From assembly GCF_013170705.1 (NCBI RefSeq), contig NZ_CP033334.1:3883501-3947500 (forward strand): a stretch of DNA of 64,000 nt, given 5' to 3'. A program made the position numbers and the translations under genes. Source of the stretch: Mesorhizobium loti. Its GTDB lineage: Bacteria > Pseudomonadota > Alphaproteobacteria > Rhizobiales > Rhizobiaceae. Below the pieces are notes generated by a model that searched no databases, had not been told where the DNA came from, and was given only the letters and a program-made list of their open reading frames with translations. Below, one piece after another: positions 8,746-60,201 of this stretch (position 1 is the first letter of the stretch; the number at the start of each line of letters is the position of its first letter).

Positions 8746-8796
8746 ATGAAAAAGGCACTCATTCTCGTAGGAAGGCGCGTGGGCAAGGCGGTGTAA
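8746..8796 (+). CDS. ilvIH leader peptide (16 residues, Leu-Ile-Leu-Val)
   Basis: A 16-codon ORF reading MKKALILVGRRVGKAV, with Leu-Ile-Leu-Val at residues 5-8 and two further valines. It sits immediately upstream of an RNA hairpin series and a terminator in front of acetolactate synthase. This is the expected layout for attenuation by branched-chain aminoacyl-tRNA supply: ribosome stalling at residues 5-8 would change downstream folding. No Shine-Dalgarno site precedes it. Confidence 0.7.
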   Translation: MKKALILVGRRVGKAV

Positions 8797-8852
8797 CCGC
8801 CGGGCGAAATCCTCCCATGCGCAACACACAGGCTCCCTCGGGGGCCTTTTTT
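8775..8852 (+). terminator. Attenuator hairpins and terminator of ilvIH
   Basis: Three elements: GCGCGTGGG (8775-8783) pairs with CCCATGCGC (8814-8822); a perfect GGCGGT/ACCGCC hairpin (8787-8801) spans the leader stop codon; and GGCTCCC/GGGGGCC (8831-8846) is followed by TTTTTT (8847-8852), an intrinsic terminator. The first stem overlaps the 3' half of the leader peptide, so ribosome position should decide which structure forms. Confidence 0.7.
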
Positions 8853-8916
8853 ATTGCCTGAAACACGACTAAACGACCAGCAATCGCCAGATGGCGGACA
8901 GTACGGGACCAGACCG

Positions 8917-52772: not shown

Positions 52773-53407
52773 AGGCCGGGCCTCGCCAATGAATTGAGCG
52801 CGGCGGCCGTCATGGCGCTGCCGCCAAGCCGGCCACGCACGATGGCATAGGGCACGCCATAGGAATTCTCGGCCAATGCATCCTTGGATTCGGCGGCACC
52901 GACGAAGCCAACCGGCATGCCGATGATGGCCGCCGGCTTCGGCGCGCCGTCGCGCAATTTTTCCAGGAGATAGAACAGTGCGGTCGGCGCATTGCCGATG
53001 GCGACGACCGAACCGGCCATGCGCTCGCCCCACAGGTCGATCGCGGCGGCCGAACGGGTGTTGCCGATCGCTCTGGCGATGTCGTGCGTGCGCGGATCGC
53101 GCAGCGTGCAGATCACTTCGTTGCCGGCCGGCAGCCGGGCGCGGGTGACGCCATGCGAGACCATTTCGGCATCGCAGAAGATCGGCGCGCCGGCGGCGAG
53201 TGCCTGGCGCGCGGCGGTGACGAAATCAGGCGAGAAAACGAAATGGCTTGATGCTTCGACCTGGCCGCAGGCATGGATCATGCGGATGGCGACATCGGCC
53301 TCGGCGTCCGAGAAGCGCTTGAGGTCGGCTTCGGCGCGGATAATGGCGAAGGAGCGCTCGTAGATCGCCGTGCCGTCGTGAATGTAGTCGTAGGCGGCCA
53401 TGCTCAT
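52769..53407 (-). CDS. cobH: Precorrin-8X methylmutase
   Basis: A 212-residue mutase that moves the C-11 methyl to C-12, giving hydrogenobyrinic acid. Typical YIHDGTAIYERSFAIIRAEADL opening with the catalytic-region histidine MIHACGQVEASSHFVFS and AIIGMPVGFVGAAESKDAL toward the end. ATG at 53407 overlaps the cobG stop; an internal ATG two codons later is possible. Confidence 0.96.
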   Translation of the reverse strand: MSMAAYDYIHDGTAIYERSFAIIRAEADLKRFSDAEADVAIRMIHACGQVEASSHFVFSPDFVTAARQALAAGAPIFCDAEMVSHGVTRARLPAGNEVICTLRDPRTHDIARAIGNTRSAAAIDLWGERMAGSVVAIGNAPTALFYLLEKLRDGAPKPAAIIGMPVGFVGAAESKDALAENSYGVPYAIVRGRLGGSAMTAAALNSLARPGL

Positions 53408-54924
53408 TTCCGTTTTTTAGTTTGGGCCTGTCGGTAAGTCTCGGCGATTGCCGCCAGCCCGAGCCTTGTGAGGCAAGCAGCGGCGGTCTCGTCCTGAAAT
53501 CGTTCGCTGCGGATCACCGCCGCGACGCGACTGAAGCCGCGCGCGGCGTCATAGCCCGGCCTGTAGCCGGCAGGAAGAGCCTTTGCCGTCGCGTTCACGA
53601 CAAGTCCGGCTCCATTTTCGCCGCCGACGATCGTGAGCGTCGCCGGGCCGGGATGCGCGCAGCCCTTGGCGCAGCCGGAAATGTGCAGGGTGAAGTCGAG
53701 AATGTCCGCGTTTTCGGCGGCGATCGTCTCGGCGATGTCACGCGTGGCGATGCGGCCGGAGGCGCAGGCCGGCGTGCCGGGGCAGGCAGCGATGCGGGTG
53801 CGCGGATCGGTGTGGCAGGTGACGAAGTCGAGGGCGGCGGCGGCTTGCTGGAGGCGATGGTTCGCTGACTGTGGTTGGCCGAGGAAGAGCAAGGCGCGGC
53901 CCGGGGCGAGGCGGATTTCGGTGGTGCCCAGCGTGAGGGCGCTTTGCGTGAGAGCGATGAGCTTCTCGGCTGGCATACTGCCGTAGGGGAGAGCAATGCC
54001 GAGGGCGAAAGTGTCGCCGGCCAAAGGGAAAAGGCCGATAGGTTTGCGCGAGGCGCCCCCCTCTGTCCTGCCGGACATCTCCCCCACGAGGGGGGAGATC
54101 GGCTGCCCTGCCGGCGGCGTTGTTCTTGCGAAAGCGGACGTGTGCTGAGCCGTTTCGGCGTTGGAAATGGGCGAGGCCGAGCACGAATGAGCAATCTCCC
54201 CCCTTGTGGGGGAGATGTCCGGCAGGACAGAGGGGGGCGCCACAGAATGCCAGCCTGCGAGAGATACCAATTGCCTCTCCGACAAATCCCTCGCATGCGC
54301 TTCGCGGCCCTTTTCAGCGACCATCCTGAGCGTAGCGACGGCTATGTCTCTAGCGGCATCCGCATCGACTGTTGCCAGCACCTTCGCGTTTCGGCCGTCA
54401 CCGGCAACCGATACGCTCCAGACGATGTCGTTGTCGGCTCGCATCGCCTTCAGCCGCACATCGGCCGTCACCGCATCCATCGTCAGTTGTCCGCCACCGT
54501 CGACAATCACCGACATCTTCGGCCCCAGCCGTTGCGTCAGCCCGGCGTCCTCGACCGCCACCCTGATCCGCTCCGCCAACGGTCGCGGCTCGGCGATCTC
54601 CTGCGGATCGATGCCCGCCAGCGGTCCTGTCTCCACCGGCACGCCGGTCCGCACCGCAATGCCCAGCGCATCGACCTCCGCCGCTAGCAGTGCCGCGCTC
54701 TCCGCTGTCAGGCCGCGTATCTGCAGACTACCCCGCGCCGTCACCTCCATGATGCCGTTGCCATGCCGCTGGGCGGAGTCCGCCAGCTCGATCAAGAGCT
54801 TCGGCGTCAATCCTTCAAAAGATGGGGCTCCGGCAACCGGGTTGAGCCGCACCAGCAGCCCATCGCCGGTCTGCATTGGTGTCGACAGGGCCGGACAGGC
54901 GCCCCGGCGCGAGAAGGCGTTCAT
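53404..54924 (-). CDS. cobG: Precorrin-3B synthase with in-frame palindromic insertion
   Basis: A 506-residue nitrite/sulfite-reductase-like oxygenase that converts precorrin-3A to precorrin-3B; its siroheme-style Fe-S ligands are visible in AACPGTPACASG and HISGCAKGCAHPG near the C-terminus. Start ATG at 54924 overlaps the cobN stop. Unusual: a stretch of about 64 residues (about 229-292) is encoded by a 190-base repeat element and reads as low-complexity Pro/Ser/Gly sequence unlike CobG; the conserved sequence resumes at GLFPLAGDTFALGIALP. The frame is kept, so the protein may still work with an extra loop. The family is normally about 440 residues. Confidence 0.92.
   Translation of the reverse strand: MNAFSRRGACPALSTPMQTGDGLLVRLNPVAGAPSFEGLTPKLLIELADSAQRHGNGIMEVTARGSLQIRGLTAESAALLAAEVDALGIAVRTGVPVETGPLAGIDPQEIAEPRPLAERIRVAVEDAGLTQRLGPKMSVIVDGGGQLTMDAVTADVRLKAMRADNDIVWSVSVAGDGRNAKVLATVDADAARDIAVATLRMVAEKGREAHARDLSERQLVSLAGWHSVAPPSVLPDISPTRGEIAHSCSASPISNAETAQHTSAFARTTPPAGQPISPLVGEMSGRTEGGASRKPIGLFPLAGDTFALGIALPYGSMPAEKLIALTQSALTLGTTEIRLAPGRALLFLGQPQSANHRLQQAAAALDFVTCHTDPRTRIAACPGTPACASGRIATRDIAETIAAENADILDFTLHISGCAKGCAHPGPATLTIVGGENGAGLVVNATAKALPAGYRPGYDAARGFSRVAAVIRSERFQDETAAACLTRLGLAAIAETYRQAQTKKRK
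54052..54241. repeat. 190-base palindromic repeat element inside cobG
   Basis: The two ends are 50-base inverted repeats (54052-54101 and 54192-54241), starting GGCGCCCCCCTCTGTCCTGC and differing at only a couple of positions. Each arm contains its own hairpin (CTCCCCCAC...GGGGGGAG). The middle has about 90 bases. It resembles small non-autonomous mobile palindromes that are intergenic in rhizobia; here it is within a gene and open in the cobG frame. Confidence 0.85.
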
Positions 54925-57900
54925 GCCGCCACTCCCAGCGCCTCTGCCTCGGCAATCAGCGCCGCGAGATCGTCGTCGATGGAATTGCGCAAGGGATGCC
55001 AGAGGCCGCGCCGTCGCGCGGAGAGAAAACGCTCGGCGATGACCTTCGCGGCGGCCGGGTTTTCGCGCAGGATGAAGGCGCGAACTTCCGCGTCGCCAAC
55101 ATAGGCGTCGTGCACGGCCTCGATCAGCGCGCCCGAAATGGCATGGGTGGTCTCGGCGAAGCCGACCAGCCGGTCGACCGTCTCGGCGAATTCGGAGGCG
55201 CCGCGCGGGCCGTGCCGCATCTGTCCGGCGATGAAACGCGCATTGACGGCGCGGGCGCGTACCACCCGCGAGACGGCCTCGCCGACCGAACGCGGCTTCG
55301 GCTTTTGCGGGTCTGTCGTGTCGAGGACGATGACGTCGGCATTCCGGCCGAGCGCTGCAAGTGCTGCCGAAAAGCCGCCGATGAAGGCGACGTCGGCGGA
55401 GCCTTCGAGAATGTCGCGGCCGGGGTCGTCGCCGGTGTGGACCAGAAGATCGGCTTCGGCGATGCGGGTTTCGAACGCGCCGGGCACCGAGACGCCTTCG
55501 CCGCCGGCACCGCCATAGGCATGCGAGGTGGCGTCGAGATAGGCGCGGCCGATTTCTTCGCGCGCTGCCCAGTCGCCGCTCGACAGGAGGTCCTCGACGC
55601 CGGCGCCGTAAGTGCCGGGCGAGGTGCCGAAAATGCGTGGGCTGATCTTGCCATCCGCTCGGGTCCGGGCCGCGAGCGGGTTTTCCGAATCCTCCTCGTC
55701 GCGCGCGGCGACGGCATTGGCGGCGGCGTCGATCAGCGCGATCTGGGTCGGGAACATGTCGCGGAACAGGCCCGATATGCGCCAGGTGACATCGACGCGC
55801 GGGCGGCCGAGCGTTGCCGGCGGCAGCACCTCGATGCCGGTGATGCGGCCGGTGGCGGCATCCCATTGCGGCCGGCAGCCCATCAGCGCCAGGCCTTGCG
55901 CGATTTCCTCGCCGCCGGTGCGCAGCGAGGCCGAGCCCCAGAGGTCGATCACCAGAGAGCGCGGCCAGTCGCCATGCGTTTGCATATAGCCGCGCACGAC
56001 CTCTTCCGCCGCCGCCTTGCCCAGGTCATAGGCGGTCGGTGTCGGCATGGTGCGTGGATCCGACGTGAACAGGTTGCGGCCGGTGGGCAAAACATCGGAG
56101 CGCCCCCGCGCGGGCGCGCCGGCCGGTCCGGCCTTGACGTGGCGGCCATCGAGCGCGGCGAGCAGCGCCGACCTTTCAGCCTCGGCACTTTGGCGGCGCA
56201 TGGCGTCAGGCTCACCATCGGGCGCGCGGCCGTAGATATGCAACCCATCCTTGATGGCGAAGTCCTTGAGGTCGCAGAGCCAGGCGTCGATGCGGCGCAG
56301 CGCCTCGTCGGGCGCGTCGGTCCTGGCGACGCCGGCTTCGGCGGCGAGGCCGGTCTTTTGCGCGGTGTCGACGATCAGCTTTGCCAGGCGGTCGCGGCGG
56401 CGGCGGTCGAGGCCATCTGCCTGGGCATATTCGTCAACCAGCCGTTCGAGTTTGTGCTGGTCGTCGTCCAGTCCCGCGCCGGCCAGCGGCGGCGGCAAAT
56501 GGCCGAGCGTGACGGCGGCGATGCGCCGCTTGGCTTGCGCTGCTTCGCCTGGGTTGGAGACGATGAAGGGGTAGATGACGGGCAAGGGACCGGTGACGAT
56601 CTCGGGAAAGCAGCTTTGCGAGAGTGCAACCGTCTTGCCCGGCAGCCATTCCAGCGTGCCGTGGGCGCCGACATGGATGAGCGCATGGACGCCGAGGGAT
56701 TTGCGCAGCCACAGGCCAAACGCGATCAGGGCGTGGCGCGGGGGGAGCGTCGGGTCGTGATAGTCGGCGCGGCGGTCGGCGGAGCGGCCGCGGTCGGGGG
56801 CGAGGGCGACAGTAATGTTGCCGAAGGTGGCGGCGCGGAAGGGGAAGCTTGCTGAGATCGTTTGTGAAGGTCTGTGCGCCTGGCGCAACCCTGCCTCGTC
56901 TTCTGCCTTGCCCCAAGCGCCTTCGACCCCTGCGATTGCCGCAACCGGCAACTCTGTCGAGAAGGCAATATAGTTGTCTAACGTCAATCCAGTATCGCTG
57001 ACTTCCAGAAAATCCAGCAGCGCGCGCGGCGTTTGCGGAATCCCTTCAACGGCATAGCCCTGTCCCTTCAGGTCATGCAGCATGGCCAGCACGCTCGACG
57101 GCACATCGAGGCCGACAGCATAGCCGGTACGGCCGGGAGCACTGGGATAGTCGGGGATCAGGATAGCCAGCCTGCGCTCGGCTCGAGGCGTCTCCCGCAG
57201 CTTGATGAAGGCCGCGACGCGGTCGGCCACCTGCGCCACGCGATCCGGCTCCGGCCGGTTGACGAAGGCACGGTGGCCGAGTGCCGGATCGACATCGCTT
57301 TCGCCCTTGAAGGAAATCGCGCCGGCGAGGATGCGGCCGTCCAGTTCTGGCAGCACGACATGCATGGCGAGGTCGGCGGGCGCCAGGCCGCGCTGGTTGT
57401 TTTCCCAGACGTCGCGGCGGGTGGTGGCGACGATGGCCTGGAAGACGGGCACACCGGCACGGTCGAACAGGGTTTCGACGCCGGGCTCGGCGCCTGACGC
57501 GAAGGCGGTCGCGGTGAGGATGGCGGCGGGCTTCAGTACGGCGAACGCGGTTTCCACAAAGGCCAGTGACGCCGGGTCTTTCAGGCTGGAGACGAAGATG
57601 GGGACCGGGAGCATGCCGCGTTGGCGCAGCGCTTCGAAAAGAGCATCGATCGGCGCAACATCGGCAGCCAGAAGCATCGAACGGTAGAACAGGATCGGCA
57701 CGACCTTTCCCTCCCCCTCGAGGGGCGGGTGGCCCGCAGGGTCGGATGCGGCCGGTACGACCGGGTGTGGCGTTTCTTGAGGTCGGCGCACTTCAGAGCG
57801 TCGGCGCGCTGTGGAGAGGCCACTCCCAGCCTGCGGCCGGACCCTCCCCTCGAGGGGGAGGGGGACGACGCCGCGTGTGGGCTCGTAGTAGCCGGCTTTT

Positions 57901-58424
57901 GGCACTGCCACCGGCTCAACAACGGCCGCATCCTGGCCCGCCAGCCGCGCCAGCCTCTGCACCAGCGCGCTCATATTGGCCGGGCCGCCTTCGCGGAAAT
58001 AGCCGAGCAGCGCGTCCAATTCCTGGCGCGGCAGCGTCGAGGCTTCGATCAGCCTGAGATCCTCGTCGTGGCTTTCACCGGGAAGCAGCGCCAGTTTTAT
58101 GCCGCGCTCGCGGGCGATCGAGGCCAACTGGTCGCAGCCATAGCGCCACCAATCGTGGCCGCCGAGGATGCGCACCAGGATGATCTTGGCGTGGCGGGCG
58201 ACGCCGTCGACCCAGAGGTCGACGGACATGGGATGGCGAAGGTCGCGCAATGCCGCCAGCCGCATCGAGGGCAGGCGGCCGGCATCGGCCTTCCACGCCG
58301 CCGCCAGCCCGGCAAGATCGCTGTCGGTGAAGGACAGCGCCACGATATCCGCCGGCGTCTGCCGCAGATCGACCGGCTCGGCGAGGTCGTCGAGCGAGGC
58401 GGAGGTCGTGGTGAGGATATGCAT
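54921..58424 (-). CDS. cobN: Cobaltochelatase large subunit CobN with in-frame repeat
   Basis: A 1167-residue CobN, the ATP-dependent aerobic cobaltochelatase subunit that binds hydrogenobyrinic acid a,c-diamide and inserts cobalt with the CobS and CobT chelatase partners (not in this window). Family blocks include VPILFYRSMLLAADVAPIDAL, HVGAHGTLEWLPGKTVALS and the C-terminal AYVGDAEVRAFILRENPAAA. About residues 187-239 come from a 159-base palindromic element and do not resemble CobN; flanking sequence does. 19 bases after cobW, 4-base overlap with cobG. Confidence 0.94.
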   Translation of the reverse strand: MHILTTTSASLDDLAEPVDLRQTPADIVALSFTDSDLAGLAAAWKADAGRLPSMRLAALRDLRHPMSVDLWVDGVARHAKIILVRILGGHDWWRYGCDQLASIARERGIKLALLPGESHDEDLRLIEASTLPRQELDALLGYFREGGPANMSALVQRLARLAGQDAAVVEPVAVPKAGYYEPTRGVVPLPLEGRVRPQAGSGLSTARRRSEVRRPQETPHPVVPAASDPAGHPPLEGEGKVVPILFYRSMLLAADVAPIDALFEALRQRGMLPVPIFVSSLKDPASLAFVETAFAVLKPAAILTATAFASGAEPGVETLFDRAGVPVFQAIVATTRRDVWENNQRGLAPADLAMHVVLPELDGRILAGAISFKGESDVDPALGHRAFVNRPEPDRVAQVADRVAAFIKLRETPRAERRLAILIPDYPSAPGRTGYAVGLDVPSSVLAMLHDLKGQGYAVEGIPQTPRALLDFLEVSDTGLTLDNYIAFSTELPVAAIAGVEGAWGKAEDEAGLRQAHRPSQTISASFPFRAATFGNITVALAPDRGRSADRRADYHDPTLPPRHALIAFGLWLRKSLGVHALIHVGAHGTLEWLPGKTVALSQSCFPEIVTGPLPVIYPFIVSNPGEAAQAKRRIAAVTLGHLPPPLAGAGLDDDQHKLERLVDEYAQADGLDRRRRDRLAKLIVDTAQKTGLAAEAGVARTDAPDEALRRIDAWLCDLKDFAIKDGLHIYGRAPDGEPDAMRRQSAEAERSALLAALDGRHVKAGPAGAPARGRSDVLPTGRNLFTSDPRTMPTPTAYDLGKAAAEEVVRGYMQTHGDWPRSLVIDLWGSASLRTGGEEIAQGLALMGCRPQWDAATGRITGIEVLPPATLGRPRVDVTWRISGLFRDMFPTQIALIDAAANAVAARDEEDSENPLAARTRADGKISPRIFGTSPGTYGAGVEDLLSSGDWAAREEIGRAYLDATSHAYGGAGGEGVSVPGAFETRIAEADLLVHTGDDPGRDILEGSADVAFIGGFSAALAALGRNADVIVLDTTDPQKPKPRSVGEAVSRVVRARAVNARFIAGQMRHGPRGASEFAETVDRLVGFAETTHAISGALIEAVHDAYVGDAEVRAFILRENPAAAKVIAERFLSARRRGLWHPLRNSIDDDLAALIAEAEALGVAA
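57706..57864. repeat. 159-base palindromic repeat element inside cobN
   Basis: Ends are inverted repeats of about 35 bases (57706-57740 and 57830-57864) built around CCCTCCCCCTCGAGGGG, with about 30 matching positions; each arm has its own CCCCTCGAGGGG palindrome. 159 bases is exactly 53 codons and the frame is open. Its sequence is a different family from the cobG element. Confidence 0.8.
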
Positions 58425-59961: not shown

Positions 59962-59984
59962 GATCGGATTCTCTTGTCGCAGAC

Positions 59985-60162
59985 GGCAGGTCTCCTGGCT
60001 CGCGGGTCATCGCCTTGGGTGCCGCCTTCCCGGGAATTCCCAGTGGCTTTCGGCCTTGGCTCTTCGCTTACAGTTGCGGGGACAGCCGCGGATTTGAGAT
60101 TTTTCACCTCGCACCGCATTCCCTCTTAGCCCCTGCCGTTGCGGGCAAGGGACCGTCTGGAC
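59985..60162 (-). promoter_or_regulatory. Cobalamin (B12) riboswitch
   Basis: On the minus strand, conserved parts occur in order: GGAATGCGGTGCGA, then CTGTCCCCGCAACTGTAAGC, the B12 box AGCCACTG (complement of 60041-60048), GGGAAGGC, and the closing GACCCGCGAGCCAGGAGACC. This is a class I adenosylcobalamin aptamer. It sits in front of the DUF1636-cobW-cobN series, so high B12 should switch the cluster off. Confidence 0.95.
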
Positions 60163-60201
60163 GGGATTTAGGCTTTTGCAGGCAGCGGTGTCAACGCGAG
60201 C

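Follow-up and report, generated by a model that had tools for sequence, protein, structure and literature searches.

Palindromic elements inserted in frame in cobN and cobG of Mesorhizobium loti, and DUF559 as their candidate mobilizing nuclease

Results

Palindromic elements in cobN and cobG

The window—the whole stretch of 64,000 nucleotides of Mesorhizobium loti DNA analyzed here—carries cobN and an adjoining open frame holding cobG, each of which contains a palindromic element read in frame. The features are as follows, in window positions.

54921..58424, minus strand: cobN, cobaltochelatase subunit, 1167 aa, reading through the T1 element
57709..57862, minus strand: T1-type palindromic element in cobN, ~154 bp, in frame, about 51-53 codons
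57709..57753, unstranded: first arm of the T1 element, a hairpin around CCCCTCGAGGGG plus a second small palindrome
57818..57862, unstranded: second arm of the T1 element, inverted
53404..55866, minus strand: open frame holding cobG, with Nitrite/Sulfite reductase domains
54056..54237, minus strand: T2-type palindromic element in cobG, in frame, with hairpins at 54077-54099 and 54194-54216 and tails outward

The frame at 53404..55866 is presumably CobG, a name we assign from its domains and its place. Because its 5' part overlaps cobN, the true cobG start lies further in. A cobalamin riboswitch (59968-60172, minus strand) stands upstream of the cob genes, and the Rfam Atu_C8 Rhizobiales sRNA is found at 8748-8862 (plus strand).

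A sequence-only reading of this DNA had described a palindromic element in frame in CobN, and the element is present at that place. Its arms around CCCCTCGAGGGG span 22 nt with 95% complementarity when aligned without gaps, and 45 nt each (57709-57753 and 57818-57862; score 23) when gaps are allowed. The palindrome is above chance: only 1 of 1,064 control positions in the window reaches its arm score, and that position is the CobG insert; as RNA, the element folds at -102.7 kcal/mol (z -5.6), a value that none of 200 shuffles equals. The open frame of CobN, a protein of 1167 aa with an NCBIfam CobN match, is unbroken across the element. Between the same aligned blocks, the solved CobN 9uk9 has 15 residues vs. 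53 in Mesorhizobium loti CobN; the insert occupies a linker of the protein and keeps the frame.

Are the two elements related? The recurring unit consists of a CTCCCC..GGGGAG hairpin, a second small hairpin or palindrome, and a G-rich tail. Judged by eye, the hairpins point outward in T1 and the tails point outward in T2. By sequence, then, the CobN and CobG elements are the same kind of unit in opposite arrangements and thus not unrelated, as they had been called; both types also adjoin DUF559 genes. We have dropped the reading of two unrelated families.

A dispersed family in the Mesorhizobium loti genome

With the CobN element as query, the 6.87-Mb genome returned 35 matching pieces, the query itself counted. 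The core CCCCTYGAGGGG occurs at 32 places vs. 0 in a reversed control, so that the genome-wide search proposed earlier yielded a dispersed family. Eighteen of the 32 cores are arranged as nine pairs with spacings of 113-167 bp, and a further two stand on either side of a DUF559 gene. The pattern CTCCCCYNNRGGGGAG, also tried, had the wrong spacing and few sites. A near search for the T1 element in plasmids gave no match.

Two further in-frame copies in this genome sit within a hydantoinase/oxoprolinase ORF and another in the N-terminal extension of UvrB, and the cobalamin pathway is therefore not special in the tolerance that had been suggested for it. The left and right units of the UvrB copy (G000:C1:2385994-2386118) differ from each other. 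We also examined 20 further stretches, most of them of the CTTCTCCC type. In 16, no frame stays open for 60 codons to either side of the element, one of these (L328) being too short to tell; the remaining four have such a frame and may or may not lie in genes. Placement inside or outside genes is judged here from such open-frame tests on 40 own-genome stretches.

Recurrence at the same sites in relatives

How general is the insert among related CobN proteins? We compared the best 80 of 208 loci, of which 77 contain the CobN start (three partial loci were excluded). The T1 element stands at the same linker in 13 of the 77 relatives, and an element of T2 type in 10. Other palindromic families occupy it in four (L083, L084, L094, and L086, the last with a single unit only), and four more have probable scars judged by eye (L056, L058, L067, L082). 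The remaining 46 show no such state, although L104 may retain a remnant. Different families thus recur at one CobN linker, and the frame is open in 77/77. The sister-species comparison called for by the sequence-only reading shows a segment that is not general to CobN: 13/77 carry the same element, and the others a different element or none.

A search for clean hairpin pairs covered the window's last 20 kb and the 80 loci; the window's own T1 element is too imperfect for detection by it. Of the 81 pairs that it gave, 20 are at CobN linker 1 and 24 at CobN linker 2, 36 occupy the position of cobG, and 1 is close to the N terminus of CobN. Nearly all cobG-position pairs (35/36) lie within a spanning open frame, and 31 of these 35 frames have a siroheme-type Cys motif; the one without a spanning frame is L109. 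Across relatives, three CobN sites and one CobG site have been hit, in line with the tolerance of such DNA in CobN and CobG that had been proposed. The N-terminal pair belongs to a Neorhizobium, and a second Neorhizobium (L132:3920-4500) has a T2-type element near the CobN N terminus with another repeat nested inside and the frame open. At L109, from a complete genome, the C/G runs are one base short in both the CobN and CobG elements and the CobG frame is broken, which may reflect true frameshifts or sequencing errors; we therefore do not count its CobN element, which is in a shifted frame, as evidence against a role in the protein.

On a CobN tree with the linkers cut out, there are at least 19 state changes at linker 1 and at least 13 at linker 2, where a change may be gain, loss, or exchange of cobN between strains, which a tree does not distinguish. 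This was a quick tree built from 50 proteins out of 58 rows, with L115-L134 excluded and the site labels of L084, L058, L067, and L082 set by hand. Sister rows carry different element families (L057/L080, L060/L096), and same-site elements in sister species differ in their interiors and loop letters. The two hairpin loops of T2 elements are reverse complements of each other in 32 of 63 elements vs. a mean of 9.6 and a maximum of 19 in 5000 shuffles, the 63 being those of the 81 pairs that have two 23-nt hairpins. The element at CobN linker 2 has short repeats next to it, but as evidence of a target-site duplication these are ambiguous.

DUF559 genes beside the hairpins

Which gene might move these elements? 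Three canonical DUF559 genes are present in the Mesorhizobium loti genome, together with a single weak match, and each canonical gene lies between inverted units of a subtype particular to it. Only the gene at 3733052 (L033), which encodes a 146-aa protein, has CobN-type (T1) ends, and 58 nt of the end of its locus match the CobN element at 87%.

We then surveyed 75 DUF559 loci from own-genome, family, phylum, and genus samples, mostly the best match per genome (8 of 83 rows, cut by contig ends, were dropped); the rows are related and do not amount to 75 independent cases. Inverted arms with a score of at least 20 surround the gene at 38/75 DUF559 loci. Among the controls, Vsr loci gave 0/26 (4 of the 30 having been dropped), ORFs 2/752, and shifted positions 6/300. 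At one of the two ORFs (L108:3267-4453), two oppositely oriented cobalamin riboswitches on either side of a single gene mimic arms. Within a 53-locus subset, inverted arms were found at 30/53 loci, at 18/265 combinations with arms swapped between DUF559 loci, and at 1/106 shifted positions. The swapped matches arise because the units resemble each other, and the tie of a gene to its own subtype is accordingly weaker than its tie to the class.

DUF559 and the hairpins are statistically tied. At 65/75 DUF559 loci, two matched hairpins occur no more than 700 bp away, vs. 1/26 Vsr loci and 9/696 ORFs, at least five of the nine being elements of the DUF559-hairpin kind. The proportion is 3/3 in the own-genome sample, 19/26 in the family, 22/23 in the phylum, and 21/23 in the genus, and 61 of the 65 loci have a CTCCC..GGGAG hairpin. 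Hairpins flank the gene at 38 loci and lie only upstream at 21 and only downstream at 6; at 10 of the 75 there is no hairpin pair by the criterion used. Among Y1_Tnp genes, 4/22 loci (8/30 dropped) have a pair within 700 bp; either the pair test has little sensitivity for RAYT-type genes already described, or the Y1 genes sampled are for the most part not RAYTs. One DUF559 gene (L164) is followed by a six-hairpin array of the CCTCTTTGCTAAAGAGG kind within 700 bp.

The association extends to plasmids, where 6 of 8 DUF559 loci fetched from 45 matching records have a hairpin pair; the other two (Deinococcus and Picosynechococcus) have inverted arms only, the score being 20.5 in the first and, below the threshold, 17 in the second. 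On a Pseudanabaena plasmid (L336), a cyanobacterial DUF559 gene has CCCCCTAAATCCCCC..GGGGGACTT palindromes on both sides, which suggests that the link reaches cyanobacterial repeats.

Hairpin number per genome follows the gene as well, with a median of 14.5 in 38 genomes with DUF559 vs. 1 in 23 without (Mann-Whitney p 0.0002; one genome with a weak DUF559 match counted as without), and p 0.005 among genomes of 3.3-5.8 Mb only. Five of the 23 genomes without DUF559 are exceptions and contain 17-78 hairpins. Variation in DUF559 sequence goes along with variation in the hairpins (rho 0.31, n=63, 0/999 permutations), more weakly once congeners are removed (rho 0.21, n=39, 1/999), and shared ancestry may account for this co-variation. 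The Y1 transposase (PF01797) has 0 matches in this genome and in three sampled congeners.

What kind of protein is DUF559? Residues D54, E65, D67, and H71 are invariant in 36 aligned rows. The structure model (pLDDT 83) matched 3hrl (E 4e-7), 3r3p (E 2e-4), and 1vsr (E 0.07) in the PDB; of these, 3hrl is an endonuclease-like protein, the homing endonuclease I-Bth0305I is also among the matches, and the Vsr match is weaker. Both the modeled fold and the conserved acidic and His residues agree with the Vsr/homing-endonuclease type, and we regard the protein as a putative nuclease. PADLOC returned no match for two DUF559 proteins.

At an intergenic DUF559 site, 30 loci of relatives were retrieved and 19 read (10 were in the opposite orientation and 1 was without its right flank). 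Four have the element, one a single hairpin left, and 14 other intergenic DNA, with no clean target-site duplication and no sharp empty site among the readable 19.

How might the elements move?

We think it fairly probable that these observations reflect a REPIN/RAYT-like system, in which DUF559 is the candidate mobilizing nuclease and the CobN insert a nonautonomous copy. The insert would be a short copy of a dispersed, REPIN-like palindromic element made of two inverted units, and the likely mobilizing enzyme would be the DUF559 nuclease, encoded between units of this kind or beside them. The enzyme would recognize and cut the hairpins, and copies would spread by transposition or by break-and-copy repair. 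Purifying selection would remove insertions that break a frame, so that within genes open copies in flexible linkers survive. Movement itself we infer from comparison of present-day sequences. Its mode may be transposition or break-and-copy (homing); that no target duplication was seen, that elements appear to be replaced at the same site, and that arms appear homogenized tilt the balance toward the second.

Taken as a complete account, homing would have DUF559 make a break whose repair copies the element into related sites, without transposition to new ones. The fold match to I-Bth0305I, the 19 readable loci with no target duplication seen, the reverse-complementary T2 loops (32/63 vs. 9.6), the differing interiors and loop letters at one site in sister species, and the sister rows whose families differ at a shared site all point this way. 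Homing alone, however, leaves the first entry into a new site such as the CobN linker unexplained; arm homogenization could also come from replication slippage, and replacement from ordinary recombination between strains. We hold this variant as a tentative possibility, somewhat short of an even chance.

Alternatively, the palindromes could be ordinary intergenic repeats—terminators, mRNA stabilizers, or BIME-like sequences—spread by another enzyme or by recombination, with DUF559 genes as passengers or as frequent insertions in repeat-rich places. Such hairpins can serve as RNA structures, as the fold of the CobN element (z -5.6) illustrates, and five genomes of 23 without DUF559 hold many hairpins. 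Against this stand the inverted arms (38/75 vs. 0/26 for Vsr and 2/752 for ORFs) and the absence of Y1 transposase from this genome, and we judge it unlikely.

Constraint and open frames in the inserts

Are the inserts constrained as protein, or merely tolerated? Across 14 sequences of the T1 insert, differences at the three codon positions are 0.148/0.113/0.143, vs. 0.089/0.063/0.309 and 0.070/0.040/0.322 in the flanks, where the third position dominates. Codon-position structure is nearly lost within the insert; since the three positions differ about alike, the T1 peptide is not conserved as protein. T1 third positions are more alike than those of the neighborhood, as if the DNA itself were conserved or homogenized. 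The T2 insert (9 sequences; 0.198/0.211/0.276) shows a weaker loss of structure.

The sequence-only reading had offered, as one option, that the elements are adapted to be translatable, that is, that they evolved open frames so that insertion into genes is harmless. Its proposed comparison with shuffled sequence came out divided. Most tested intergenic copies are at chance: among the 36 copies adjacent to DUF559, open frames number 101/216 against an expected 96.2 (24/100 shuffles reach 101), 12 own-genome CTTCTCCC-type copies have 29/72 vs. 29.2, and single units are no more open than shuffles. Nine T1-type copies, however, show a mild excess of open frames (37/54, with 29.3 expected; P 0.007), also after removal of the cobN and hydantoinase copies with the uvrB copy retained (28/42 vs. 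21.4, P 0.013). In genic cob copies the excess of open frames is clear (300/480 vs. 254.4), which is expected if frame-breaking copies have been lost, and random genomic slices also exceed expectation (120/216 vs. 101). The T1-type excess is what adaptation to translation would predict, yet the chance-level copies leave the claim unsupported, and we consider it quite improbable. Because chance-level openness prevails among the intergenic copies tested and the insert is not conserved as protein, tolerance fits the in-frame inserts better.

That the segment is a selected functional domain of Mesorhizobium CobN, encoded by a palindrome by chance, would suit its presence in 13/77 relatives with the frame always kept and the residual third-position excess of T2 (0.198/0.211/0.276), but the even codon positions within T1, its replacement by other families at the same linker, and the commonness of probable scars and internal deletions make this exceedingly improbable, and we reject it.

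Discussion

Implications

More broadly, we see about an even chance that DUF559 proteins are the enzymes of a widespread, hitherto unrecognized mobile-repeat system, in which a homing-endonuclease-like nuclease spreads C/G-rich palindromic units. Such a system would reach from Pseudomonadota as far as Deinococcota and Cyanobacteriota; the CTCCC..GGGAG repeats found both within genes and between them would be its short copies, and it would have rewritten protein linkers such as that of CobN time and again. Should DUF559 indeed move the repeats, a role could be assigned to a Pfam family that still bears the label "unknown function," palindromic repeats of a large class would have a candidate enzyme, and a second nuclease, unrelated to the first, would prove to underlie REPIN-like biology. 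The linker of CobN offers a natural record of how such DNA enters proteins, from in-frame insertion through scar decay to replacement by other families, with the frame kept.

Comparison with known systems

Where has DUF559 been reported before? VsrA of Caulobacter has the same domain and is described (PMC12907096) as a Vsr-like endonuclease; the role proposed there is in mismatch repair, and the string "palindrom" is absent from the main text. Elsewhere, passages of PMC12308824 describe repeated segments with a transposase and DUF559 as recombination hotspots, and passages of PMC5082802 treat other REP elements in Bradyrhizobium. Our search by title and opening of abstract, mostly outside subscription papers, found no tie between DUF559 and palindromic repeats, and prior reports are possible.

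A close parallel for the insertions is the Rickettsia palindromic elements (RPEs; Ogata et al. 2000), which passages of PMC10969869 describe as ~150 bp long, of several families, and in frame in genes for unrelated proteins. The CobN and CobG elements are likewise palindromic, about 150 bp, and dispersed, with in-frame copies in cobN, cobG, a hydantoinase ORF (two), and the uvrB extension. The likeness is one of description, and there are differences: the host is Mesorhizobium-like, a candidate mobilizing gene has been identified, and the T1 insert peptide is not conserved as protein, its codon positions differing about alike.

MITEs are short, have inverted ends, and have longer nuclease-encoding relatives with the same ends. 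The CobN element similarly shares its ends with the longer, gene-bearing DUF559 locus L033 (58 nt at 87%). Its ends, however, are hairpin units where a MITE has plain terminal inverted repeats, and the DUF559 locus examined (19 loci readable) gave no clean duplication of a target site. Passages of PMC10969869 review MITEs.

For the system as a whole, a close parallel is REPIN/RAYT, described in passages of Bertels and Rainey 2011 (PMC3116915) as two inverted REP-like palindromes, dispersed, with a nuclease gene alongside. The elements reported here share the inverted doublet of REP-like palindromes and the adjoining nuclease gene (DUF559, at 65/75 loci). They differ in that in-frame genic copies recur at some sites. 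REPINs are thought to be moved by a Y1 tyrosine transposase, whereas the gene here is DUF559, with a predicted Vsr/homing-endonuclease fold, in a genome with 0 matches to PF01797.
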